A DNA stretch of 64,000 bases from Gordonia heveisoli (GTDB taxonomy: Bacteria > Actinomycetota > Actinomycetes > Mycobacteriales > Mycobacteriaceae): contig NZ_JASXSH010000003.1 in NCBI RefSeq assembly GCF_030315745.1, positions 186,001-250,000 on the forward strand. Direction: 5' to 3'. Shown in pieces: positions 672 to 24,858 of the stretch (position 1 is the first letter of the stretch; every line of letters begins with the position of its first letter). The notes beneath the pieces are model-generated. The model made no database searches. It had not been told where the DNA came from and saw nothing but the letters and a program-made list of their open reading frames with translations. The position numbers and the translations under genes were made by a program.

Positions 672-1825
672 TTGTTCGTGTCTTCGGACTGTCCGCCCTG
701 GTGTCGTTGGCCGCGCTCGCGGTCGCCTTCGGCTACGCCGGGTGGACGGGACTGGTGCTGTGCGCGATTCTCGGCATCCTCGAGGTCTCGCTGTCCTTCG
801 ACAACGCGGTCATCAACGCCACCGTCCTGGCGCGGATGAGCGACTTCTGGCAGCGGATGTTCCTGACGGTCGGCGTCATCATCGCCGTATTCGGTATGCG
901 GCTGATCTTTCCGCTGGCGATCGTGTGGATAACTGCGGGACTCGATCCGGCCGAGGCTATGCGACTGGCGCTGAACCCACCGCCTGACGGAGCCGACCAC
1001 TTCGCCGATGGCAGCCCAAGCTACGAACTGCTCCTCGAAGAGGCCAATCCGCAGATCGCCTCGTTCGGCGGGATGTTCCTGCTGCTGCTGTTCCTGAACT
1101 TCGTGCTCACCGACCGTGAACGCACCTGGCTGACGTGGCTGGAACGGCCACTCGGCGCGATCGGCAAACTCGAGACCCTGTCGATCGTGATCGCCGCGAG
1201 CAGTCTGCTGGTCTTCGCCCAGTATGTGGCCGCCGACGACGATCGCACCACGGTGCTGGTCGCCGGCCTGCTGGGCATCATCGTCTATCTCCTCGTGGAC
1301 GGGCTCAGTTCGCTGTTCGAGGTGTCCGGTCCGGGATACGAGGTGACCGACACCGTCGACGACACCGGCCATGTCCATCTGAGCGGGCCGACCACGGTCA
1401 CCCGTGCGGTGGGCAAGGCGGGCTTCTTCCTGTTCTTGTATCTGGAAGTCCTCGACGCCACCTTCTCCTTCGACGGCGTCATCGGCGCCTTCGCGATCAC
1501 CGCGGACCCGATTCTCATCGCGCTGGGGCTGGGGTTCATCGGCGCGATGTTCGTCCGGTCGATCACGATCTATCTCGTGCGCAAGGGAACCTTGTCGCAG
1601 TACCGCTATCTCGAGCACGGGGCGCACTGGGCGATCGGTGCGCTCGCGGTGATCTTGCTCGTCAGCATCGCCCACCACATCCCCGAGGTCATCACCGGGC
1701 TGATCGGGGTGCTCTTCATCGGAGCGTCATTGCTCAGCAGCATTCGTGCCAATCGTCGCGATGCCCGTACCGCAGCCCGCCGACAGGCCGACCCGACGGG
1801 CGCGGACGCAGGCGTGCCACGGTGA
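668..1825 (+). CDS. DUF475 / TerC-like integral membrane protein
   Basis: 385 residues, starting at the GTG that overlaps the previous stop by 4 bp. A longer frame reaches back to 557 but would overlap the upstream gene heavily. Many hydrophobic segments span the protein. The conserved SFDNAV motif (residues 43-48) recurs in modified form as SFDGV in the second half, giving the two-repeat layout with buried acidic residues seen in the TerC/DUF475 superfamily. TerC-type proteins are linked to metal export or co-translocational metalation of secreted enzymes. The function of the DUF475 branch is not established, so metal handling here is an inference. Confidence 0.85.
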   Translation: MIVRVFGLSALVSLAALAVAFGYAGWTGLVLCAILGILEVSLSFDNAVINATVLARMSDFWQRMFLTVGVIIAVFGMRLIFPLAIVWITAGLDPAEAMRLALNPPPDGADHFADGSPSYELLLEEANPQIASFGGMFLLLLFLNFVLTDRERTWLTWLERPLGAIGKLETLSIVIAASSLLVFAQYVAADDDRTTVLVAGLLGIIVYLLVDGLSSLFEVSGPGYEVTDTVDDTGHVHLSGPTTVTRAVGKAGFFLFLYLEVLDATFSFDGVIGAFAITADPILIALGLGFIGAMFVRSITIYLVRKGTLSQYRYLEHGAHWAIGALAVILLVSIAHHIPEVITGLIGVLFIGASLLSSIRANRRDARTAARRQADPTGADAGVPR

Positions 1826-2025
1826 CGCGGCACGGACGCGTGCGGCACCGATAGCCGGTCGTTCCGCTCGAATCGGACATGGCGCGCTGTCGTTGCGCCG
1901 CAGCGGATTCGGAATGTACGAACCACCATTTGCCGGTGTTCGCGCAGCGTCGTTCCACCACGGTGCACCAGACTGGGAATCATCGCGAGAAAGACGGTGT
2001 TGTCCGGAGCGGCGACGGTGTACAA

Positions 2026-2418
2026 ATGACGGCGACGGCGAGTCCGGCGGCACCGGATACGGCGACTTTTGGACTCACGACTTTTGGACTCACGACTCAC
2101 AACGTGGTGGTTGCGGTGGACAAGGCAGCAATGGACAAGTCAGGACGAGACAGGGCGGCGACGATGGAGAAGCTGGTGCTGGACAACAGCTCGACGCTCG
2201 ACAGTCGTCAGCGCGAGATGCTCCAGTTCGAGACCGAGTGGTATCCGCTCGGTGGCGGATCCTCGCGTCAGATCGTCGAACAGTTCGGTGTGGACGACCG
2301 CGATTTCTTCGCCGAGGTCGGACGCCTGGTGGACAACGATCCGCCGGAGGCACTGACCCAGGCGGAGTTGCGTCGTATGCGCGAGGTCATTCGACGCCGC
2401 CTTTGGATGGCCCGCTGA
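2026..2418 (+). CDS. DUF3263 family protein
   Basis: The C-terminal 85 or so residues (from LDSRQREMLQFETEWY to RRRLWMAR) match the DUF3263 family, short actinobacterial proteins resembling sigma-factor/helix-turn-helix helices. They are probably DNA-binding, but unproven. The ATG at 2026 gives 130 residues and includes a 15-bp tandem duplication encoding TFGLT twice. Internal starts at 2131 (MDKSGRD) or 2164 (MEKLV) give the more usual family length of about 80-95 residues. None has a strong ribosome-binding site, so the N-terminus is uncertain. Confidence 0.75.
   Translation: MTATASPAAPDTATFGLTTFGLTTHNVVVAVDKAAMDKSGRDRAATMEKLVLDNSSTLDSRQREMLQFETEWYPLGGGSSRQIVEQFGVDDRDFFAEVGRLVDNDPPEALTQAELRRMREVIRRRLWMAR
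2064..2100 (+). repeat. 15-bp tandem repeat, 2 copies plus 7 bp
   Basis: GACTTTTGGACTCAC occurs at 2064-2078 and again at 2079-2093, followed by a partial copy (2094-2100). The unit length is a multiple of three. It lies near the 5' end of the DUF3263 gene, either in its N-terminal codons or in its leader. Confidence 0.95.
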
Positions 2419-2479
2419 TCGTCGCTGTTCGGTCGGCCGCCGACGACGCTCGGACATGCCCGACGCCGAGGCGGGGGAG

Positions 2480-2485
2480 TAACCT
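2480..2485 (+). promoter_or_regulatory. -10 element, leaderless start
   Basis: TAACCT is followed by 7 nt and the GTG at 2493. Confidence 0.45.
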
Positions 2486-2492
2486 CACGCGC

Positions 2493-2900
2493 GTGTCCCC
2501 GTTCTCCGACGACGATCTCGCGGCCTACTACCGCGAGATCGAGTGGCGGACCGCGGCGAACGAGCCGGTACGTCGCCGGGGGCCGACGCCGATCCATCGC
2601 AGCGTCCGCGGTCGCGACAGCGACGAGGGCTCCGGGCGTGGTCGGGGCGACCGCAGCGATCGCCGGAGGCAGCCCTGCCCCACACCGGACAAGGTGGCCT
2701 ACACCGATCCCGCGCAGGTGCGGGAGGCGATCGACTACGGACGGCGATACCGGCGAAGTGGTGTCGAGTTGCGTTCCTACCTGTGTCGGTGCGGTTGCTG
2801 GCATATCACCAGTTCACCGCGCCTTTCGGAGGACGAATCGGCACGCGGTCGGCGCCCACGGCACATCCCGCAGCGGGGCAAGGGTAAGAAGAAGCGGTGA
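2493..2900 (+). CDS. Hypothetical protein with C-terminal Cys-rich motif
   Basis: 135 residues. The middle is very basic (runs of Arg, Asp and Gly). The C-terminal half has YLCRCGCWHITS, a knuckle-like Cys/His cluster seen in small actinobacterial proteins, and the protein ends in a lysine-rich GKGKKKR tail. This looks like a nucleic-acid- or ribosome-associated protein, but that is inference from composition only. GTG 2493 fits a leaderless start. The last codons overlap the following GTG by 4 bp, coupling it to the VOC protein. Confidence 0.7.
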   Translation: MSPFSDDDLAAYYREIEWRTAANEPVRRRGPTPIHRSVRGRDSDEGSGRGRGDRSDRRRQPCPTPDKVAYTDPAQVREAIDYGRRYRRSGVELRSYLCRCGCWHITSSPRLSEDESARGRRPRHIPQRGKGKKKR

Positions 2901-3643
2901 CCGCGTACGCACCCACCCCGGCCGTCGAGATCTCGCTCGCATCAGCCGACCCCACCCGAAGCCGGGCCGCGTACGACACGCTGCTCGATCGCACCGAGAG
3001 CACGGTGATCGGTCGTGGGAATGCGACGATCCGCCTCGTCGACGCCGATGCGGTCAATCGCACCTACCTGTTCACCGTTGATCCGGACACGCGGGCGCGG
3101 CTGCTCGCGCGCCGTGGCCTGCCCTTCACCGCGCCGACTAGCCCCGCCCATGCCGACGAGCTGATCGCCGCGGAGGCGCCCTTCGGCATCATCGGCGTCA
3201 CACACACGAACGTCGACCCCGATCCGACTACGACCGCCGGCGACATCACAGCCAGCGACATCACCGGTATGGACCACCTGGTCTACATGTGTCGCGGGCG
3301 GGACCAGGCCCTCGCATTGTTCGGGGCGACACTGGGTTTCGACTTCCGCCTCGACCGCACCCTGGCCGATGGCGTCCACCAACTGTTCTTCCGCGCCGAC
3401 GACCTCATCTTCGAGGTCATCGTCAACGAGGCCGACGGCGACGAGGCCGACGGCGCCGGGCCAGTCGAGCTATGGGGACTGGCGTGGCGGTCCGCCGATA
3501 TCGAACTCAGCCATGCGCGCCTGCATCAGGCCGGCATGCCCGTCTCAGACATCCGTCGGGGCGCCAAACCGGGAACCCGCATCTTCACCGTTCGCGACCG
3601 GGCGCTGAGCACTCGCACCGTCGTAATCGAGCAGGGCAGCTGA
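2897..3643 (+). CDS. VOC (glyoxalase/bleomycin-resistance/dioxygenase) superfamily protein
   Basis: 248 residues in two related halves, the layout of a fused two-module vicinal-oxygen-chelate protein. The second half starts at about residue 121 with ITGMDHLVYMC, the typical first strand carrying a metal-binding His. An acidic loop (EADGDEADG, about residues 178-186) is made by a near-perfect 15-bp duplication. The substrate cannot be told. GTG 2897 overlaps the previous stop (GTGA), so the two genes form one transcript. Confidence 0.75.
   Translation: MTAYAPTPAVEISLASADPTRSRAAYDTLLDRTESTVIGRGNATIRLVDADAVNRTYLFTVDPDTRARLLARRGLPFTAPTSPAHADELIAAEAPFGIIGVTHTNVDPDPTTTAGDITASDITGMDHLVYMCRGRDQALALFGATLGFDFRLDRTLADGVHQLFFRADDLIFEVIVNEADGDEADGAGPVELWGLAWRSADIELSHARLHQAGMPVSDIRRGAKPGTRIFTVRDRALSTRTVVIEQGS
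3427..3456 (+). repeat. 15-bp tandem duplication inside the VOC gene
   Basis: Two adjacent 15-bp units (3427-3441 and 3442-3456) differ at one base, adding five acidic/Gly residues to a surface-type loop. Confidence 0.85.
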
Positions 3644-3753
3644 GAGCGGCCATCCCGAGGCGAGTTCCGGCCAGGTGTGGCGCAGGGCACACTTCATGAG
3701 TTAATCTGACTACGGACGTTATCGAATTGAGGGCGCTGTAGTACTCATGACGG

Positions 3754-3805
3754 CCCATCCATATGACGACGACCCATCCATATGACGACGACCCATCCAT
3801 ATGAC
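3754..3805 (+). repeat. 19-bp tandem repeat, 2.7 copies, upstream of the MpaB-like gene
   Basis: CCCATCCATATGACGACGA is repeated at 3754-3772 and 3773-3791, with a 14-bp third copy at 3792-3805. Each unit contains an NdeI-type CATATG. The array ends 30 bp before the preferred ATG at 3836. The unit is not a multiple of three, which supports it being leader rather than coding DNA. Confidence 0.95.
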
Positions 3806-3835
3806 ACTGTCAGACGCGCTACGCCAGGGGGTTTC

Positions 3836-4831
3836 ATGACCGCGGTACACGACAAGGCCGACGCAGCACCGGTCGATCCCGCCGACGAGGTACTCCCCGG
3901 TGGCGATCACCTGATCAACAACGCCGACGACGAGATCGAGCTCATCTCGCCGGATTCGCTGACCGCCGAACTGACCGGCCACTTCACCTTTCTGCCGGTC
4001 AACGGCGCCGCCTTCGTCATGCAGGTGATGCATCCGATCATCGGTGATGTGGTGGACAAGTACTCGGTCTTCCGCACCGACCCGCTCGGTCGGGCCATCC
4101 GCTCGACGGATTCGGTCATGCGCTGGATCTACGGCGGAACCGAGGCCCTCGAGGAGGGCAAACGACTGCGCAAGATGCATCAGCCGCTGCAGATGCGCAA
4201 CGCCGACGGCAAACACATCAGTGCGCTGAACCCGGAGGCCTACGCCTGGGTCATCGCCACGGCGTTTCCGACACTGCTGTCGAGCGCACCGCTGCTCGTC
4301 GGCCGCCAGTTCAGCGTCGTCGAACAGCGCGAGCTCCTCGAGGACAACCGGCGCATCGCCAAGATCGTCCAGGTGCCGATGAAGGGTTACCCGACAACGG
4401 TGGAGGAGTTCGGCGAGTACTTCGACGACTTCGTCGAGAACAAGCTCGTGCGCCATCCGGTGGCCGTCGAACTCATCGAGCAGATGCAGGCCGCCCCGGC
4501 GATTCCCCGCAACATCCCGGCCCGCCGCCTCGTGACGGCGATCGCGGCCAAGGCATCGATCCCGTTGCAACGGTTCAACTACCTCACCACCGTCGGGGTG
4601 ATGGATCCTCGCGTACGCGAGATCCTGGGCGTGACGTGGAGCGATGACGAACAGCGGCAGCTCGAGCGGATGCACGCGGTGGTGCGCGGCGCGTATCGGG
4701 TCCTGCCCGAGCGGGTGACCTATTTCCCGTTGGCCTACCACGCCCGACGGCACCACGACGCCATCGTCGCGATGAAGAAGCGGGAGAAGCAGGGCGCGGC
4801 GTATGCGCACGCCCGCCGGGGTGTCGAGTAG
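3836..4831 (+). CDS. Oxygenase MpaB-family (DUF2236) protein
   Basis: 331 residues. It belongs to the DUF2236/MpaB/latex-clearing-protein group, predicted haem-dependent oxygenases. Visible landmarks are the N-terminal VNGAAFVMQVMHPIIGD stretch, a D-x-LGRAIRS segment, and GTEALEEGKRLRKMHQPL with the conserved region around the proposed haem-ligand His. Mycobacteriales carry many paralogues with unknown substrates. ATG 3836 is preferred because AGGGGG sits 4 nt upstream. In-frame ATGs at 3782 and 3803 lie inside the 19-bp repeat array. It appears to be a single-gene unit and converges with the FAD oxidoreductase. Confidence 0.75.
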   Translation: MTAVHDKADAAPVDPADEVLPGGDHLINNADDEIELISPDSLTAELTGHFTFLPVNGAAFVMQVMHPIIGDVVDKYSVFRTDPLGRAIRSTDSVMRWIYGGTEALEEGKRLRKMHQPLQMRNADGKHISALNPEAYAWVIATAFPTLLSSAPLLVGRQFSVVEQRELLEDNRRIAKIVQVPMKGYPTTVEEFGEYFDDFVENKLVRHPVAVELIEQMQAAPAIPRNIPARRLVTAIAAKASIPLQRFNYLTTVGVMDPRVREILGVTWSDDEQRQLERMHAVVRGAYRVLPERVTYFPLAYHARRHHDAIVAMKKREKQGAAYAHARRGVE

Positions 4832-8925: not shown

Positions 8926-11307
8926 ATGTCCGCGAAACAGACGCGCACACCCCATCCCGCCGACGGCCACGACTGGATCCGAGTGCACGGCGCCCGCGAG
9001 AACAACCTCAAGAACGTGGACGTCGACTTGCCGAAACGCAGGTTGACCGTATTCACCGGGGTGTCCGGATCGGGGAAGAGTTCATTGGTTTTCGGCACGA
9101 TCGCCGCCGAATCGCAGCGCATGATCAACGAGACCTACAGCGCTTTCGTCCAGGGCTTCATGCCCACCCAATCGCGGCCCGACGTCGACATTCTCGAAGG
9201 ACTGACCACCGCGATCATCGTCGACCAGGAACGGATGGGCGCCAATGTGCGGTCTACCGTGGGCACCGCCACCGACGCCAACGCCCTCCTCCGAATCTTG
9301 TTCAGCCGCCTCGGTGAACCCCACATCGGGTCGCCGCAGGCCTTCTCGTTCAACGTCGCCTCGATCAGCGGAGCCGGCGCGGTCACCGTCGACAAGGGCG
9401 GACGACAGGTCAAGGAGCGCCGCACCTTCTCCATCACCGGCGGCATGTGTCCGCGATGTGAGGGCCGCGGATCGGTCTCCGACTTCGACCTGACCGCACT
9501 CTACGACGAGACGAAGTCGCTCAACGACGGCGCGCTGACCATTCCGGGTTACAGCATGGACGGATGGTATGGCCGGATCTTCCGCGGATGCGGGTACTTC
9601 GATCCGGACAAGCCGATCGCCACGTTCACCAAGAAGCAACTCGACGACCTGCTCTACCGGGAGCCGACCAAGATCCAGGTCGACGGGATCAACCTGACCT
9701 ACGAGGGACTGATCCCGAAGATTAAGAAGTCGATGCTGTCGAAGGATCGCGAGGCGATGCAGCCGCACATCCGGGCCTTCGTCGACCGGGCGATCGCCTT
9801 CGCCGAGTGCCCCGACTGTGGCGGCACCCGACTGTCGGCGGCGGCGCGGTCGTCGACGATCAACGGTCTCAGCATCGCCGACGCATGCGCGATGCAGATC
9901 AGCGACCTGGCCGACTGGGTCGACGGCATCGATGAGCCATCGGCCGCGCCGCTGCTCGCCGGTCTGCGCGCCAACCTCCAGTCCTTCGTCGACATCGGTC
10001 TGGGTTACCTGTCGCTGGACCGTCCGGCCGGAACCCTGTCCGGAGGAGAGTCCCAGCGCACCAAACTGATTCGCCACCTGGGTTCATCTCTGACCGACGT
10101 CACCTACGTCTTCGACGAACCGTCCATCGGCCTACACCCGCATGACATCGAACGAATGAACCAGCTGCTGCGTCAGCTGCGCGACAAGGGCAACACGGTA
10201 CTCGTCGTCGAACACAAGCCCGAGGTCATCACCATCGCCGACCACATCGTCGATCTGGGGCCAGGTGCGGGTGTCGACGGTGGGCAGGTCATGTTCGAGG
10301 GCACGGTCGACGGGTTGCGCGCGAGCGGCACCGTGACCGGTCACCACCTCGACGACCGGATACGACTCAAGGAGTCAACGCGGCCGTCGTCGGGCAAAGT
10401 CGAGATCCGTGGCGCCACTACGCACAATCTGCGGGACGTCGACGTCGACATCCCGCTCGGCCAATTCGTCGCGGTCACCGGGGTGGCGGGCTCGGGCAAG
10501 AGCTCACTCATCCACGGATCGGTGGCCGGACGTGAGGGTGTCGTCGCCATCGACCAGAGTGCGATCAAGGGTTCACGGCGCAGCAACCCGGCGACCTACA
10601 CCGGTGTCCTCGATCCGATCCGCAAAGCCTTCGCCAAGGCCAACGGCGTGAAGCCGGCACTGTTCAGCGCCAACTCCGAGGGCGCCTGCCCCAACTGCAA
10701 CGGCGCCGGGATGATCTATTCGGATCTAGCTGTGATGGCCGGGGTCGCCACCGTGTGTGAGGTCTGCGATGGCAAGCGGTTCCAGGCGGAAGTGCTCGAA
10801 TACACCCTGGGCGGGCGCGACATCGACCAGGTCCTGTCGATGTCGGTGGCGCAGGCGCAGGCCTTCTTCGCCGATGGCGAGGCGAAGATCCCCGCAGCCC
10901 ACAAGATTCTGACTCGGCTGGCCGACGTCGGGCTGGGGTACCTCAAGATCGGGCAACCGCTGACCACCCTGTCCGGGGGCGAGCGGCAGCGACTGAAACT
11001 TGCCTCACTGATGGGGGAGAAGGCCGAGATCTACATCCTCGACGAGCCGACCACCGGGTTGCATCTCGCCGACGTCGAACAGCTACTCGACCTACTCGAC
11101 CGGCTGGTCGACAGCGGTAAGTCGATCATCGTGATCGAACACCACCAGGCGGTGATGGCACGCGCGGACTGGATCATCGACATCGGCCCCGGTGCCGGCC
11201 ACGACGGCGGGCAGGTGGTTTTCGAGGGCACACCCGCCGAACTGGTCGCCGACCCGTCCACCCTCACGGGTAAACATCTCGCCGAGTACGTGGGTGCCGC
11301 CGGGTAA
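8926..11307 (+). CDS. UvrA-like ABC ATPase (short, UvrA2/DrrC type)
   Basis: 793 residues against about 950 for housekeeping UvrA, so it is shortened in the inserted domains as in class II UvrA/DrrC proteins. There are two ATPase modules. Walker A is GVSGSGKSS (about residues 45-53) and GVAGSGKSS (near 524). ABC signatures are [11 protein letters not shown] and [11 protein letters not shown]. Walker B regions are [10 protein letters not shown] and [10 protein letters not shown]. Zinc-finger cysteines ([28 protein letters not shown]) remain. Such paralogues are thought to strip drugs from DNA rather than recruit UvrB. A ribosome-binding AGAGAGAAG precedes ATG 8926. It is the last gene of the AraC-VOC-UvrA cassette. 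Confidence 0.9.
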
Positions 11308-18429: not shown

Positions 18430-18607
18430 GGCGGGGCACGTCCATCAGCGGATGTGCACAGACACCCCAGATCGGCGGTGGCGATCGGCGCGTGCGAGCT
18501 CCAGCATGGCAAACTACCTTGCGGCCCGGGGAGATCGTCCGGTGCTCGTTTCGTGCATTGAGCCGATGCATGTCACCCGTCCAGTCAGGAATCGTGAGGC
18601 AGAGAAT

Positions 18608-20068
18608 TTGAGTGCTGAACAGCCGACGCTGACGGAGATCTGGGAGGCCAACCGCGGGATCCAGGAGTCCGCAGCGGTGCGATTGTTCGCGGCGACGAAC
18701 GCCGCCCTCTACGTCACGCTGATGGAACGCCATCTGGACTTCGGTGCCCGGCGCACCGAGAACGAACTGGCGCTGCGCCTCGAACGCGATATGGCCGAAC
18801 TCGGCGTCGGCGACCATCCCAATGGTCTGGAGTTGGTGAAATCGTGGGCCCGGCAGGGGTGGCTGCATCGGGTGACCGACACGGCCACCGCGTCGTCGCA
18901 GAATCTCTGCTCGCTGACCCCCGAGGCGCGGACGGTCCTCGACTTCGTGCGACGGCAGCGTCGGGCGGACAGTGTCGCCACCGGTGGTTCGATCAGTGCC
19001 GTCGCCGCCGGACTCCGCCGTGTCGCCGGCCGCGTCACCGACGATCCCGACCAGATTCGTGGCGACATCGAGGCGCAGATCTCCGAACTCGACGCCGAGT
19101 TGGCCGACCTGGACGCCGGTGTCCCCCGGAACCCCGACCTTCAGGCCGCCGAGGACGAGGCGCGTGCGATCGCCTATCAGATGGAACAGATCATCTCCGA
19201 CATCGGGCAGTACGGCAGCATGCTCGACCGCATCACCACCGCGCTCCTCGACGATCCGCACGACTCCGACCTGGCCTACCGCGACCGCCAGCGCCAGATG
19301 TTCGACGACTACGAGGCGCTGTTAGAGTCGTCGCAGAGTGCGTCGTATCAGGCGTTCACGCGGATGATCCAGGATCCGACCGAACGCGCACGTCTGGTCA
19401 CCGACATCGACACCCTGACCGAACGCCTACCGGGAATCGAACCCGGACTGCGGGCGGTGATGGAGAACTTCTTCGAGCTGGTGTCCGCCCAGATGGGCGA
19501 GGTCGGCCGCACGCGCCAGCGGTGTGCGCGGCGTATTCGTCGATTCTTCGCCGCAGGCACGCTCGAGCAGAGCCGCGGCATCGCACGCCAGCTCAACGAC
19601 GCCCTGGCCACCGCCAACGAATTGCTCAAGAGTTCACTGGCCGACCGGCGCATCGGATACGAGCTACCACTCGCCGCACCGGCGGTCACCTCCATCGGCC
19701 GCCTGTCGTTCGAGATCCGCGACCCGGCTCCACCGACACCGGCGCTCCCGTCGACGACGACCGCCGACCTCAACTCTTTCGCGTCGATGGCCGGGCAGGT
19801 CGACACCGTCGAACTCACCGAGGTGGTGAATGCCGCGATCGCCGACGGCCCGGTGTCGCTGTCGCAGGCCGTCGAACAGATCGCCGAGCCCTACCTCGGT
19901 CATGTGATCGTGCTGTGGTCGTGGGCACTGCGGCAGCCCGGCGGTGAATCCGGTCAGGCGTCGGTGCCGGTCCGGTTCCGTTCATTACAAGGGGAGGACC
20001 ACGTGATCGAGGTGCCGGCTCTGATGTTCTCCGAACCGATTCCGACCGCGGAGGTCGATGCGCTGTGA
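18608..20068 (+). CDS. jetA: JetA-like protein (DUF3375), Wadjet system
   Basis: 486 residues from TTG 18608 (GAGG about 10 nt upstream). In-frame upstream ATGs at 18566 and 18509 are less convincing. It opens with a helical/winged region ([36 protein letters not shown]...[12 protein letters not shown]), followed by long alpha-helical stretches, as in the DUF3375 kleisin-like subunit of Wadjet/MksF-type SMC complexes. It bridges the heads of the JetC ATPase. The stop overlaps the jetB start by 4 bp (GTGA). Wadjet complexes extrude plasmid DNA loops and cut circular plasmids, but cutting needs JetD, which is not found here. Confidence 0.85.
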
Positions 20069-20871
20069 CTACTGAAACCGATGCGGTGACGACCGGTACC
20101 GATGAACCGGCCACCCCACCACCGGCCGTGGGCGTGCCCGACGAATACGCGGGCTTCGACGATCTGCCTGCCGTCCCCAAGACCGCGGTCGCCGATACCG
20201 GGCCCCGCGCCCCACGCTTCGACGGCGATGTCAGCGCACTTCCAGACCGTGCCTGCTGGGCGTTGCAGAATCTGCTGACCCGTCGGTATGTGAGCGGCGA
20301 CCGTCAGCCGCAGCTGTGGGCATGGGTGTCGGAGTACCAGGACGACCTGCGGGTGCGTCTGTCCGAGCTGGATCTGCGGCTACGGATCGTCGACGAGCTC
20401 CAGGTCGCCTTCGTCGAACAGGTTGGCTACGACTCTCGCTGGGGCAGAAGGATTCTCAAACGTGAGACGATCAACACCTACGACGCGATCCTGGCGCTGC
20501 ATCTGGCCAAATATGCACGCACCGCGCGGGACGAACACATGCTGATCACCCGCGAGGAGATCCACGAACTCTTCGCCGGTGTCACCAACACCATCGACCG
20601 TGACCTGGCCCTGTTCGACAAACGGATCGAGCGGGCGATCGAGAAACTCGACGAGATCGAGTTCCTCCGCAAGCAGCGCGACGATCCCGACACCTTCGTC
20701 GTCAGCCCGGCGATATCGGCGGTGATGACCGCATCGGTGATCACCGATCTGCAAAAGCAGTTCGACCAGTTCATCGGGGCGGGGGAGACCGGTGACGAGG
20801 AGCCCGGGGAGGACGACGGTGCGGCCACCGACCGCACCGAGGACATCGACGACGAGGGAGACGATTGGTGA
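20065..20871 (+). CDS. jetB: JetB-like protein (DUF4194), Wadjet system
   Basis: 268 residues. A Pro/Thr-rich N-terminal tail (about 50 residues) leads into the DUF4194 core ([22 protein letters not shown]...[12 protein letters not shown] region), a KITE-like winged-helix subunit. The C-terminus is a very acidic tail ([24 protein letters not shown]). KITE proteins bind the kleisin JetA. GTG 20065 overlaps jetA by 4 bp and the TGA overlaps jetC's GTG by 4 bp, so the three subunits are tightly coupled for stoichiometric synthesis. Confidence 0.85.
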
Positions 20872-23800
20872 GCGGCCAGGTCGACCAGTACCACCTGTCC
20901 CGGTTGCAACTGATCAACTGGGGTGTCTTCGACGGGTATCACTCGATCCCGTTCAGCCCCAACGGCGCGTTGATCACCGGATCCTCGGGAAGTGGCAAAT
21001 CCTCACTCTTGGACGCGATCTCACTGGCCTTCCTGCCCGATCACCGACGCAATTTCAACGCCTCCGGCGACGCAACCGCGGCGGGTTCCTCGAGTGGAAA
21101 ACGCACCGTCGGCAAGTACGTGCGCGGCGCATGGGGTGAACGTCGCGGGGCCACCAGTGCGCAGCGCGAGATCATGTACCTGCGCGGGACCGGCCCGGCG
21201 TGGGCGGCGATTGCGGTGACCTACACGTCCGCATCGGGTGTCGCGATCACCGGTCTGGTCTTGAAGTGGCTGGCCGCGGGCAAGATGACCGACGCACACA
21301 GTTCGTATTTCATCAAGGACGGCGACGCCGACATCGTCGATGTCTGCAACGAATGGGCACGGACGAACTACAACTCGGCACGGTTTCGCGAGCAGGGCTG
21401 GCGGGGTGGCCCCGGCGAGGGTAAATATCTCAGCACGCTGTACTCGCTGATCGGCATTCGCGGTTCCGAGGCGGCCCAGCAGCTTCTCGGAAAGGCTAAG
21501 TCACTCAAGAGCGTCGGCGGCCTTGGGCAGTTCGTCCGGGAGTTCATGCTGGACGAGCCGACGAGCATCGTCGGTATCTCCGACGCCCTCGAGCAGATCG
21601 ATCCTCTGGTCGAAGCTCGAGAGTTGCTCGACGTCGCGCGCCGCAAGCGAACGATCCTCGGAAACATCGAGACCGTGCAGGAACGCTATGTCACCGAGTC
21701 GGCGACCTTCACCGTCCTCGATACCATCGACGCGGCGACCGTGCGCTCGTATGTCAACAACCTGCGCAGGCACAACGCCGAACCGGAGATCGCCGATCTC
21801 GACGACCAGATCGCGCGGCTCGACGGCGATCTCGCGGCACTGACCGCCCAGCACGATCAGCTTCGTACCGACCACAGCCATCTGCTCTCCCGGATCGCGA
21901 CCTCGACCGGCGATCTGGCGCCGCTTCAGGAACAGCTCACCGCGGCACAGCGATTCAGCACCGAGGTGTCCGCGCGCCGCGCCACCTACGAGGACAAGGT
22001 GTCGGCGCTCGGCTACGGGCTGCCCGACGATGCCGAACAGTTCTGGGCGCTGCGTGAAGAGCTGATGGAAGAGGCGACCCGTATCGACGGCCAACTGGAG
22101 GCGGGCAAGGCGAACTTCGCCGAGAGCCTGGCTCGAGAGGTGGCCGCACGCACCCAGCGCGACGCCGCGCGTGACGAGCTGGGCCGTGTCGAACAGGCAG
22201 GCTCCGCGCTGCCCCGGGCCGAACACGAGATGCGCCGGGTCATCGCGAATGCACTTCAGATCGACGACGATGAACTGCGCTACGTCGCCGAACTCGTCGA
22301 ACTCGACCCCGGCCAGGAGCGCTGGCGACTGGCAGTGGAGAAGGTGCTGCGCGGTGCAGGTCTGCGTCTGCTGGTGCCGGATCAGCATTTCGCGGCCGCT
22401 TTGCGGTTCGTGAACACCCATGACATGCGCGGCCGAATCCAATTGCACCACGCCGAGAATCGTCCGGGTCCGGTGGCCGAGGCGGGTACGCTCGGTGCGC
22501 TGCTGCGGCCGGTCGACGCCGATCACCCGTGTTCGGCAGAGGCATTGGCGGTGCTGGCGCGGCTGGGCAACTACGTGTGCGTCGAGGACACCGCCGAGTT
22601 CGGTGAGCACACCCGGGCGGTGACCCCGCAGGGACTGCGCAAGGATTCGGCCAAGCTCGCGGTCAAGGACGATCGTCAGGCACTGCGTCCATCGCAATAC
22701 GTCTTCGTCGGCAATGGCGACGCGAAGATCGCCGCTCTCCAGGATGAACTCGACCTCGACCAGCGGGCCTACGACGTCGCCCGCGAGGCGAGCGCCGAAC
22801 TCGACCGCGAACGCAGCGAGAAGGGCAGACGCCGCGACGCCTATCGTCGTGTCTGCGAACAGTTCAGCCAGTGGAGCGAGATCGACGTCGACAACGCCGA
22901 CGATCGGGTCGGGCAGCTCACCGAGCAGTACGAGCTGCTGATGGACGAACATCCCGACATCGAGGCGCTCAATCGCAAGGCCGAGGACATCTGGGAGCAG
23001 GTGCGCGCCTCGATCTCGCAGGCAGCCCTCGTCCGGGACAAGATCGCGACCCACGACCAACGACGAACCCAACTGCTCGACCTGACCGATCGCATCAAGC
23101 TGGAAGATGTCCCGGTGCAGGCCGGCAAGACTCTCGACGGGTTCCGGGAGGAATCGGCGGCGACACTCAACGTGCTCGCACCCGAGCCGTACCGTCAGGA
23201 GCTGATGAAGGCGGTCGCCAAGGATCGTGATCGGATGCGTTCGGACGCACGGCGTTCGCGCGACGAGCTGGCCCGCATTCTGGACAGCTACGACGAGGAG
23301 TTCCCGGACGCGATCCCCAACGACAGCGACGATTTCGACGAGCGCACCCACGACTACGTCTCGCTGTGCCGACGGATCGATGAGCGCGAACTACCGTCGG
23401 CGTACGAGCGGATGCGGCGCCTGATCACCGAGCAGGCGCCGGGCGCGATCCTGAGTCTGCACATGGCTGCCGACACCGAGGAACGACGGATCGTCGAACA
23501 GATCGAGCGGGTCAATACCGGCCTGGGTTCGGTCGCGTTCAACCGGGGGACCCGCTTGCGCCTGGTCCCGGGACGCAAACATCTTGCCGCAGTTGCCGAT
23601 CTGACCGACAAGGCGCGCCAGATCTCGCAGCGGGCGACCGCGGTCAGCTTCGGTGACGAGCAGGCGATCCTGGAGCAGTACACCGACATCCTGATCCTGC
23701 GAGAACGGTTGGCGGGCAACACTCCCGAGGACCGCCAGTGGACCCGTGACGCACTCGACGTGCGCAATCGCTTCGACTTCTATTGCGAGGAGCACGATGC

Positions 23801-24215
23801 GGTCACCGGCGAGACGATCCGTACCTACAGCAACGCCGGCGACAACTCGGGCGGCGAGCAGGAGAAGCTGATGGCTTTCTGCCTCGCCGGGGCACTGAGC
23901 TTCAACCTCGCGAGTCCGGACGGCGACGACAACCGACCGATCTTCGCCCAGCTGATGCTCGACGAGGCGTTCTCGAAGTCGGATCCCCAGTTTGCCCAGC
24001 AGGCCCTGTCGGCGTTCCGCAAGTTCGGTTTCCAGCTGATCATCGTGGCGACGGTGCAGAACACCTCCACGATCCAGCCCTACATCGACAATGTGATCAT
24101 GGTGTCGAAGACCGAGGCCGGTACCGACTCCAAACCGATCGCGAACGCCATGTCGACCTCGATCAGCGCGTTCTCCGATCTGCGGCGTTCCGGCGGGAAC
24201 AGCCTCCCCGTGTAG
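20868..24215 (+). CDS. jetC: JetC-like SMC-family ATPase, Wadjet system
   Basis: 1115 residues from the GTG overlapping jetB. Walker A is GSSGSGKSS (residues 38-46), close to the N-terminus. Long coiled-coil stretches run through the middle (about 270-450 and 620-900), with a globular hinge-like part between them. The ABC signature NSGGEQEKL is near residue 994 and Walker [12 protein letters not shown] near 1030. This is the COG4913 layout of Wadjet/MksB ATPases. It would dimerise and extrude DNA loops. All ATPase motifs look intact. The next gene is a minus-strand TetR regulator 17 bp away, so the operon ends here without JetD. Confidence 0.9.
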
Positions 24216-24231
24216 CCGGGCCGGGCGGGCC

Positions 24232-24858
24232 TCAGCCGTTCTGGATTCGCAGGCCGCCCAACAGGGTGACCACGATGCGTTCGGCGTCGGCTGCTGCGGC
24301 AGCCGGCTCCGGTGTCGCTGCGATCACCAGGATCGCCGTGCAGAAGAGCCCCAGTAGAATATCGGCGGTCTCCTCGACCGGCAGCGCCACCGCCTCACCG
24401 GATTCGATCGCGTCGGTCAGCGTCGCACGGATCAACGGCAACGACATCTGTTCGTCGATCGCATGCACGCGATCCCAGCCGAGGACGTTCATCGCCTGGC
24501 GGAGCAGTTGTCCTGCCTCGCGGTCCTCGGCATAGCCGCGAACGAAGGCGCGGGTGGCCGCCTCGACCCGCTCCCAGGCCGTGGGGGCCGAGGAGTGGGC
24601 CAACACCGCCACCGCGTGGTCGATCACGCGCGCCTGGCTGTCGCGGAATACCTCGGCAAAGATCTCCTGCTTGTCCCGGAAGTGGTGGTACACAGCACCT
24701 TTGCTGGTTTGCGCATCGCCCGCGATCTGGTCGATCGACGTTCCGTCGTAACCGTTGGTGACGAAGAGTTCCTGCGCACTGGCGAGCACAGCCGACCGCG
24801 TGAGGGCGGCGTACATCTCCCGTCGGCCGGGCTTGACGCGATTCATGGACTGGAGCAT
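24232..24858 (-). CDS. TetR-family transcriptional regulator
   Basis: About 208 residues from ATG 24858; starts at 24846 or 24900 are possible. The HTH is LASAQELFVTNGYDGTSIDQIAGDAQTSKGAVYHHFRDKQEIFAEVF, a canonical TetR N-terminal domain. The C-terminus is the helical ligand/dimer domain. It is divergent from the M28 peptidase gene across a 65-bp gap. The gap carries the direct repeat ACTCGCAG twice (24859-24866 and 24885-24892), a possible binding region. It is convergent with jetC but probably unrelated in function. Confidence 0.9.
   Translation of the reverse strand: MLQSMNRVKPGRREMYAALTRSAVLASAQELFVTNGYDGTSIDQIAGDAQTSKGAVYHHFRDKQEIFAEVFRDSQARVIDHAVAVLAHSSAPTAWERVEAATRAFVRGYAEDREAGQLLRQAMNVLGWDRVHAIDEQMSLPLIRATLTDAIESGEAVALPVEETADILLGLFCTAILVIAATPEPAAAAADAERIVVTLLGGLRIQNG

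Follow-up and report, generated by a model that had tools for sequence, protein, structure and literature searches.

The window analysed here is the whole of a 64,000-nucleotide stretch of DNA from Gordonia heveisoli (assembly GCF_030315745.1, contig NZ_JASXSH010000003.1, positions 186,001 to 250,000). Between positions 18608 and 24215 its plus strand carries three genes of the Wadjet group in the order jetA-jetB-jetC. The first-pass annotation described them as an operon with overlaps of 4 bp; this is borne out by Pfam and PADLOC matches and by the jetA/jetB and jetB/jetC junctions, each of which is a 4-bp overlap reading GTGA.

The first gene, jetA or mksF (18608..20068, +), encodes a DUF3375 kleisin of 486 aa (PF11855, E 1.6e-106; PADLOC JetA1, 804 bits). 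It starts with TTG at 18608, with a GAGG-like site upstream, and an in-frame ATG at 18566 is an alternative start. The second gene, jetB or mksE (20065..20871, +), encodes the DUF4194 KITE subunit (Pfam PF13835, E 4.5e-35, and PF21980, MksE; PADLOC JetB1, 475 bits). The third, jetC or mksB (20868..24215, +), encodes an SMC ATPase of about 1115 aa with the Pfam domains AAA_29 and SbcC_Walker_B (PADLOC JetC1, 1940 bits); its start is GTG at 20868 or, in the list of open reading frames, TTG at 20865. PADLOC assigns JetA, JetB and JetC all to Wadjet type I, and the type I families stand together in one operon.

The landmarks first read from the letters alone, namely DUF3375, DUF4194 and the Walker A, signature and Walker B motifs of the SMC ATPase, are intact. 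Numbered from TTG 20865, JetC has its Walker A motif GSSGSGKS at residues 39-46 (20979..21002, +), the ABC signature NSGGEQEKL at residues 994-1002 (23844..23870, +) and the Walker B motif LMLDEAF at residues 1030-1036 (23952..23972, +). In an alignment of seven diverse members of the clade, G42, G44, K45 and S46 of Walker A are invariant, and the signature and Walker B show no variation. The nearest solved structures are the JetC chains 9qxt, 8as8 and 8dk2 (E about 1e-50). Against the canonical Smc model TIGR02168, JetC scores 40 bits, below the cut-off of 567, whereas an ordinary Smc encoded elsewhere in the G. heveisoli genome scores 975 bits.

The operon ends at 24215 and is followed by a minus-strand tetR, as first described, except that the gap is 16 bp (24216..24231) and not 17 bp, since tetR ends at 24232. 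In JetD-bearing sister operons this is the position of jetD. Ten further large frames in the window were scanned, and these belong to ordinary metabolism or to no known family; one probably UvrA-like match aside, no defence cluster was found among them. The exception is a large ABC-ATPase (8926-11304, +) matching PADLOC mad3 at 249 bits and mad8 at 109 bits, possibly just through general ABC homology.

Absence of JetD from the genome

In Wadjet systems, JetABC senses the shape of DNA and is modelled as extruding loops, and the cutting is done by JetD (PMC10586767, PMC10123090). The initial observation that the window has no JetD holds, and extends to the entire genome, which is 4.46 Mb long and 100% complete. 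The genome-wide search that had been named as a check found no JetD homologue: neither the PF09983 nor the PF11795 profile detects one, and a profile built from ten diverse JetDs gives no match in the whole genome at E<=10. The sensitivity of the search is adequate, since PF09983 finds JetD in JetD-bearing relatives of the same clade, including a sister operon, as well as in C. glutamicum and 51 of 299 genomes from the order. A replacement nuclease 3' of jetC was also looked for in the loci of the window's clade, and no conserved fourth gene is present there.

MksB, MksE and MksF thus occur without MksG anywhere in the genome, both in G. heveisoli and in 26 further Gordonia genomes. Because the nuclease was looked for and is absent, the operon is not a functional Wadjet JetABCD, and with no JetD in either operon or genome the cleavage of circular plasmids as described for Wadjet is not expected to be possible.

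Distribution in Gordonia and mycobacteria

JetC of the window type is found in 37 of 59 Gordonia genomes at 80-100% identity (80-86% in named relatives). No JetD of any kind is encoded by 27 of these 37 carriers, so automatic annotation of the operon as Wadjet defence is misleading for most of them. In nine others JetD and an adjoining second JetC, of the canonical kind, share a contig as part of a complete JetABCD, and the remaining carrier (G474) has a JetD fragment of only 134 residues. The lone JetDs of the carriers G474 and G088 are both C-terminal fragments. Beyond Gordonia, orthologues occur in about half of the 297 sampled Mycobacterium genomes, at 49-63% identity.

Since 22 of the 59 Gordonia genomes and about half of the mycobacteria sampled do without the operon, it is not essential. 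No clean empty site was found in operon-free Gordonia, because the hydrolase and M15 genes that flank the operon in carriers do not adjoin the isocitrate dehydrogenase gene in these genomes.

Support for a single ancient loss of jetD

The first-pass annotation had suggested that this copy may have lost jetD, and proposed a comparison with sister strains. Loss is upheld by the JetC and JetD trees, though not at the level of strains: they place a single ancient event on the stem of the Gordonia/Mycobacterium clade. In the comparison of sister loci, jetD is beside the operon in none of the 80 named loci of the clade; four basal mycobacterial operons of the same clade (L101, L256, L257 and L258) have a complete jetD after jetC, with little or no gap. 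A further operon, L259, from another genome, is similar to L101.

In the JetC tree, a grade of L258 and then L101, L256 and L257 lies at the base of the JetD-less clade, with SH-aLRT values of 97-98. A topology constrained to unite the JetD-bearing rows is rejected (p-AU 0.028), a moderate level of support. In the JetD tree the internal order is the same, with L258 first and support of 97-100, indicating that JetD and JetC diversified together. The basal grade and the congruent JetD tree point to descent from a JetD-bearing ancestor, and support a clade ancestor that had JetD, with, as the simplest history, a single loss on the stem of the window's group.

One mycobacterial genome, G825, carries both forms: the JetD-bearing sister operon L257 on contig C67 and, on contig C122, a JetC of the window type, from the JetD-less group. 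Such a side-by-side pair of sister operons would make the conversion from defence to maintenance directly testable.

Maintenance of the operon

The median dN/dS in Gordonia is 0.13 for JetC, 0.14 for JetB and 0.19 for JetA, compared with 0.13 for the neighbouring isocitrate dehydrogenase. JetABC is therefore under purifying selection comparable to that on a neighbouring metabolic enzyme, and the low ratios indicate that the operon is still in use. Across 15-20% protein divergence, the Gordonia copies keep their open frames and ATPase motifs intact. The operon is an intact three-gene motor whose nuclease partner went long ago, and which has since been kept by selection in Gordonia and in many mycobacteria.

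The position of the operon is also stable. Gordonia carriers have a common site, with the hydrolase upstream and M15 and isocitrate dehydrogenase downstream. Mycobacterial loci lie mainly at three shared sites (24, 14 and 8 of 61), and four of them are also near isocitrate dehydrogenase. Plasmid and phage records hold distant relatives only, whose identity across most of the protein is no higher than about 33%. Among plasmids, the nearest JetC, 32% identical, is at 1333-4610 of NZ_LR134444.1, a 22-kb plasmid of Tsukamurella tyrosinosolvens. The combination of selection, stable chromosomal sites and absence of plasmid copies suits vertically inherited, maintained genes better than mobile defence.

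Relationship to known SMC complexes

The operon belongs with the nuclease-free Wadjet-group complexes of which MksBEF is an example, a kind that is already published. In Pseudomonas aeruginosa, MksBEF, regarded as a JetABCD without its former JetD, has a part in organising the chromosome (PMC10586767). MksG/JetD is also absent from MukBEF and from several further members of the Wadjet group (PMC7617805). The present analysis adds the polarised loss of jetD, evidence that the operon has long been maintained, and a count of how often such losses recur within one order.

The window operon resembles P. aeruginosa MksBEF in having the same three subunits, no nuclease gene, and Smc-ScpAB also in the cell. 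It differs in belonging to a separate lineage, with a loss that would be separate too, the window clade being a type I Wadjet of Gordonia and mycobacteria. With Wadjet type I (JetABCD, MksBEFG or EptABCD) it shares the A-B-C gene order, the 4-bp overlaps, the subunit families and the PADLOC type I models, and its sisters L101 and L256-L258 are full JetABCD systems; however, operon and genome lack JetD. Enterobacterial MukBEF, which folds the chromosome (PMC7617805), is likewise a Wadjet-group complex without MksG/JetD, but is far more diverged and has replaced Smc-ScpAB in its hosts, while G. heveisoli keeps a normal Smc.

In Mycobacterium smegmatis, a second MukB-like SMC, MSMEG_0370, is present besides EptC and Smc (PMC6135046). 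MSMEG_0370 may be the mycobacterial representative, or orthologue, of the window clade.

Proposed function

Three readings had been offered at the outset: that JetD was lost, that a JetD encoded elsewhere is recruited, or that the complex works as a loop extruder without cutting. Loop extrusion without cutting appears to be the best remaining of these. By analogy with known complexes, and with moderate confidence, we propose that a former Wadjet has been kept as a nuclease-free loop extruder, an auxiliary condensin with a role at the chromosome. The ancestor would have been a four-gene JetABCD plasmid-restriction system which lost jetD once, on the Gordonia/Mycobacterium stem. A JetC dimer, the JetA kleisin and the JetB KITE subunit would together form a complete Wadjet-type SMC motor, and JetABC would still bind ATP and DNA and extrude loops, with no cutting. 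Its target would be the cell's own DNA, on which it would act alongside Smc-ScpAB, like P. aeruginosa MksBEF. The stable sites and purifying selection lend indirect support to a role that is probably in chromosome organisation or segregation.

Several points count against the condensin reading. Many Gordonia and mycobacteria do without the operon, and its core shows no visible re-tooling. Also, when M. smegmatis is deprived of its three SMC paralogues, the candidate orthologue MSMEG_0370 included, its DNA still condenses under stress (PMC6135046).

The core of the complex was compared with that of its JetD-bearing relatives. Of the residue columns conserved in these relatives, the JetD-less proteins of the clade have lost none in JetA, one in JetB and none in JetC, against one, none and one in the control. 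The retention of these columns means that no re-tooling of the core is visible. Erosion of JetD-contact residues was considered, and the conserved-column comparison gives no signal of it. A mark of JetD docking was sought in an N-terminal motif of JetB: the clade's FDxLP-like motif is found both with and without JetD, and the published IFDR motif is not placeable.

A core that is visibly unchanged leaves room for plasmid defence without cutting, in which JetABC would loop and compact small circles and thereby cause their poor replication, expression or segregation. In addition to the motor core, with nearly all of its conserved columns retained, this possibility can draw on M. smegmatis EptC, a MukB-like protein described, where PMC6135046 and PMC7022226 cite it, as disturbing plasmid segregation via DNA topology. 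However, EptC is part of the four-gene EptABCD, nuclease included, and in Bacillus subtilis plasmid transformation is suppressed only with all four Jet subunits (PMC10586767). The stable sites and the absence from plasmids and phages are also unlike a mobile defence gene set, and we consider this explanation rather unlikely.

Less probable still is that JetABC works with a nuclease from elsewhere, either a JetD supplied by a second Wadjet or an unrelated replacement. Nine Gordonia genomes do hold the window-type operon and a complete JetABCD together, and JetABC has kept the residues conserved in JetD-bearing relatives. But in 27 carriers, this genome and 26 more from Gordonia, the lack of any JetD excludes recruitment of one from elsewhere, the lone JetDs of G474 and G088 are fragmentary, and the clade has no conserved fourth gene beside the operon. 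As a partner in trans, JetD is ruled out in those 27 of the 37 carriers.

That the operon is a decaying Wadjet remnant with no present function would fit its loss or absence in many relatives, but is highly improbable and is in effect refuted by the selection result, with intact frames and ATPase motifs in Gordonia and dN/dS of 0.13-0.19 over 15-20% protein divergence.

Other JetD-less groups in the order

The order has other JetD-less groups besides the window clade. A second JetD-less clade, with JetC 32-34% identical, covers several other genera and comprises 34 full-length operons in the sample; no JetD was found in its genomes. In the simplest history, this clade would have lost JetD separately. 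An AlkZ-like DNA glycosylase frame lies directly 3' of jetC in 11 of 14 second-clade loci (for example, at 8952-10433, +, in L109). This is taken as synteny, and the frame may simply be adjacent or may encode a partner.

Four smaller groups are also JetD-less: L129/L130; L131-L134 with L119's second operon; L135/L136; and L143-L147. The last of these, from another family of the order, runs through one genus, and in the JetC tree it is nested within relatives that have JetD. L131-L134 are from Gordonia (genomes G439, G286, G514 and G520), and their JetC, as well as that of the second operon of L119, is 24-27% identical to the window's. This type occurs in 12 of the 59 Gordonia genomes, ten of which have no JetD at all. 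Within Gordonia it does not overlap with the window type (37 genomes), a mutual exclusion that is probably phylogenetic rather than functional evidence. In L119, the JetD-less second operon comes immediately after a JetABCD with an in-frame TAG in its jetC.

On a larger tree, the JetD label changes at least seven times, a count that includes one error, since the JetD-less second operon of L119 was scored as JetD-bearing via its neighbour. It is tentatively suggested that, within this one order, a plasmid-cutting Wadjet became a nuclease-free SMC about six times: in the window clade, in the second large clade and in four smaller groups. If true, recurrent loss of JetD may be a route by which a defence gene becomes a chromosome-maintenance gene. 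This bears on the plasmid-defence origin of the chromosome-folding MukBEF and MksBEF, for which reviews propose JetD loss. The window clade is a clear, polarised case, since in the gene tree JetD-bearing operons lie just below the JetD-less clade, which takes in both Gordonia and mycobacteria.

Lone C-terminal fragments of JetD also occur in L251 (7859-8329), L252 (7910-8275), L253, L254 and L255. With no complete jetA, jetB or jetC nearby, these are wrecks of former Wadjet operons.
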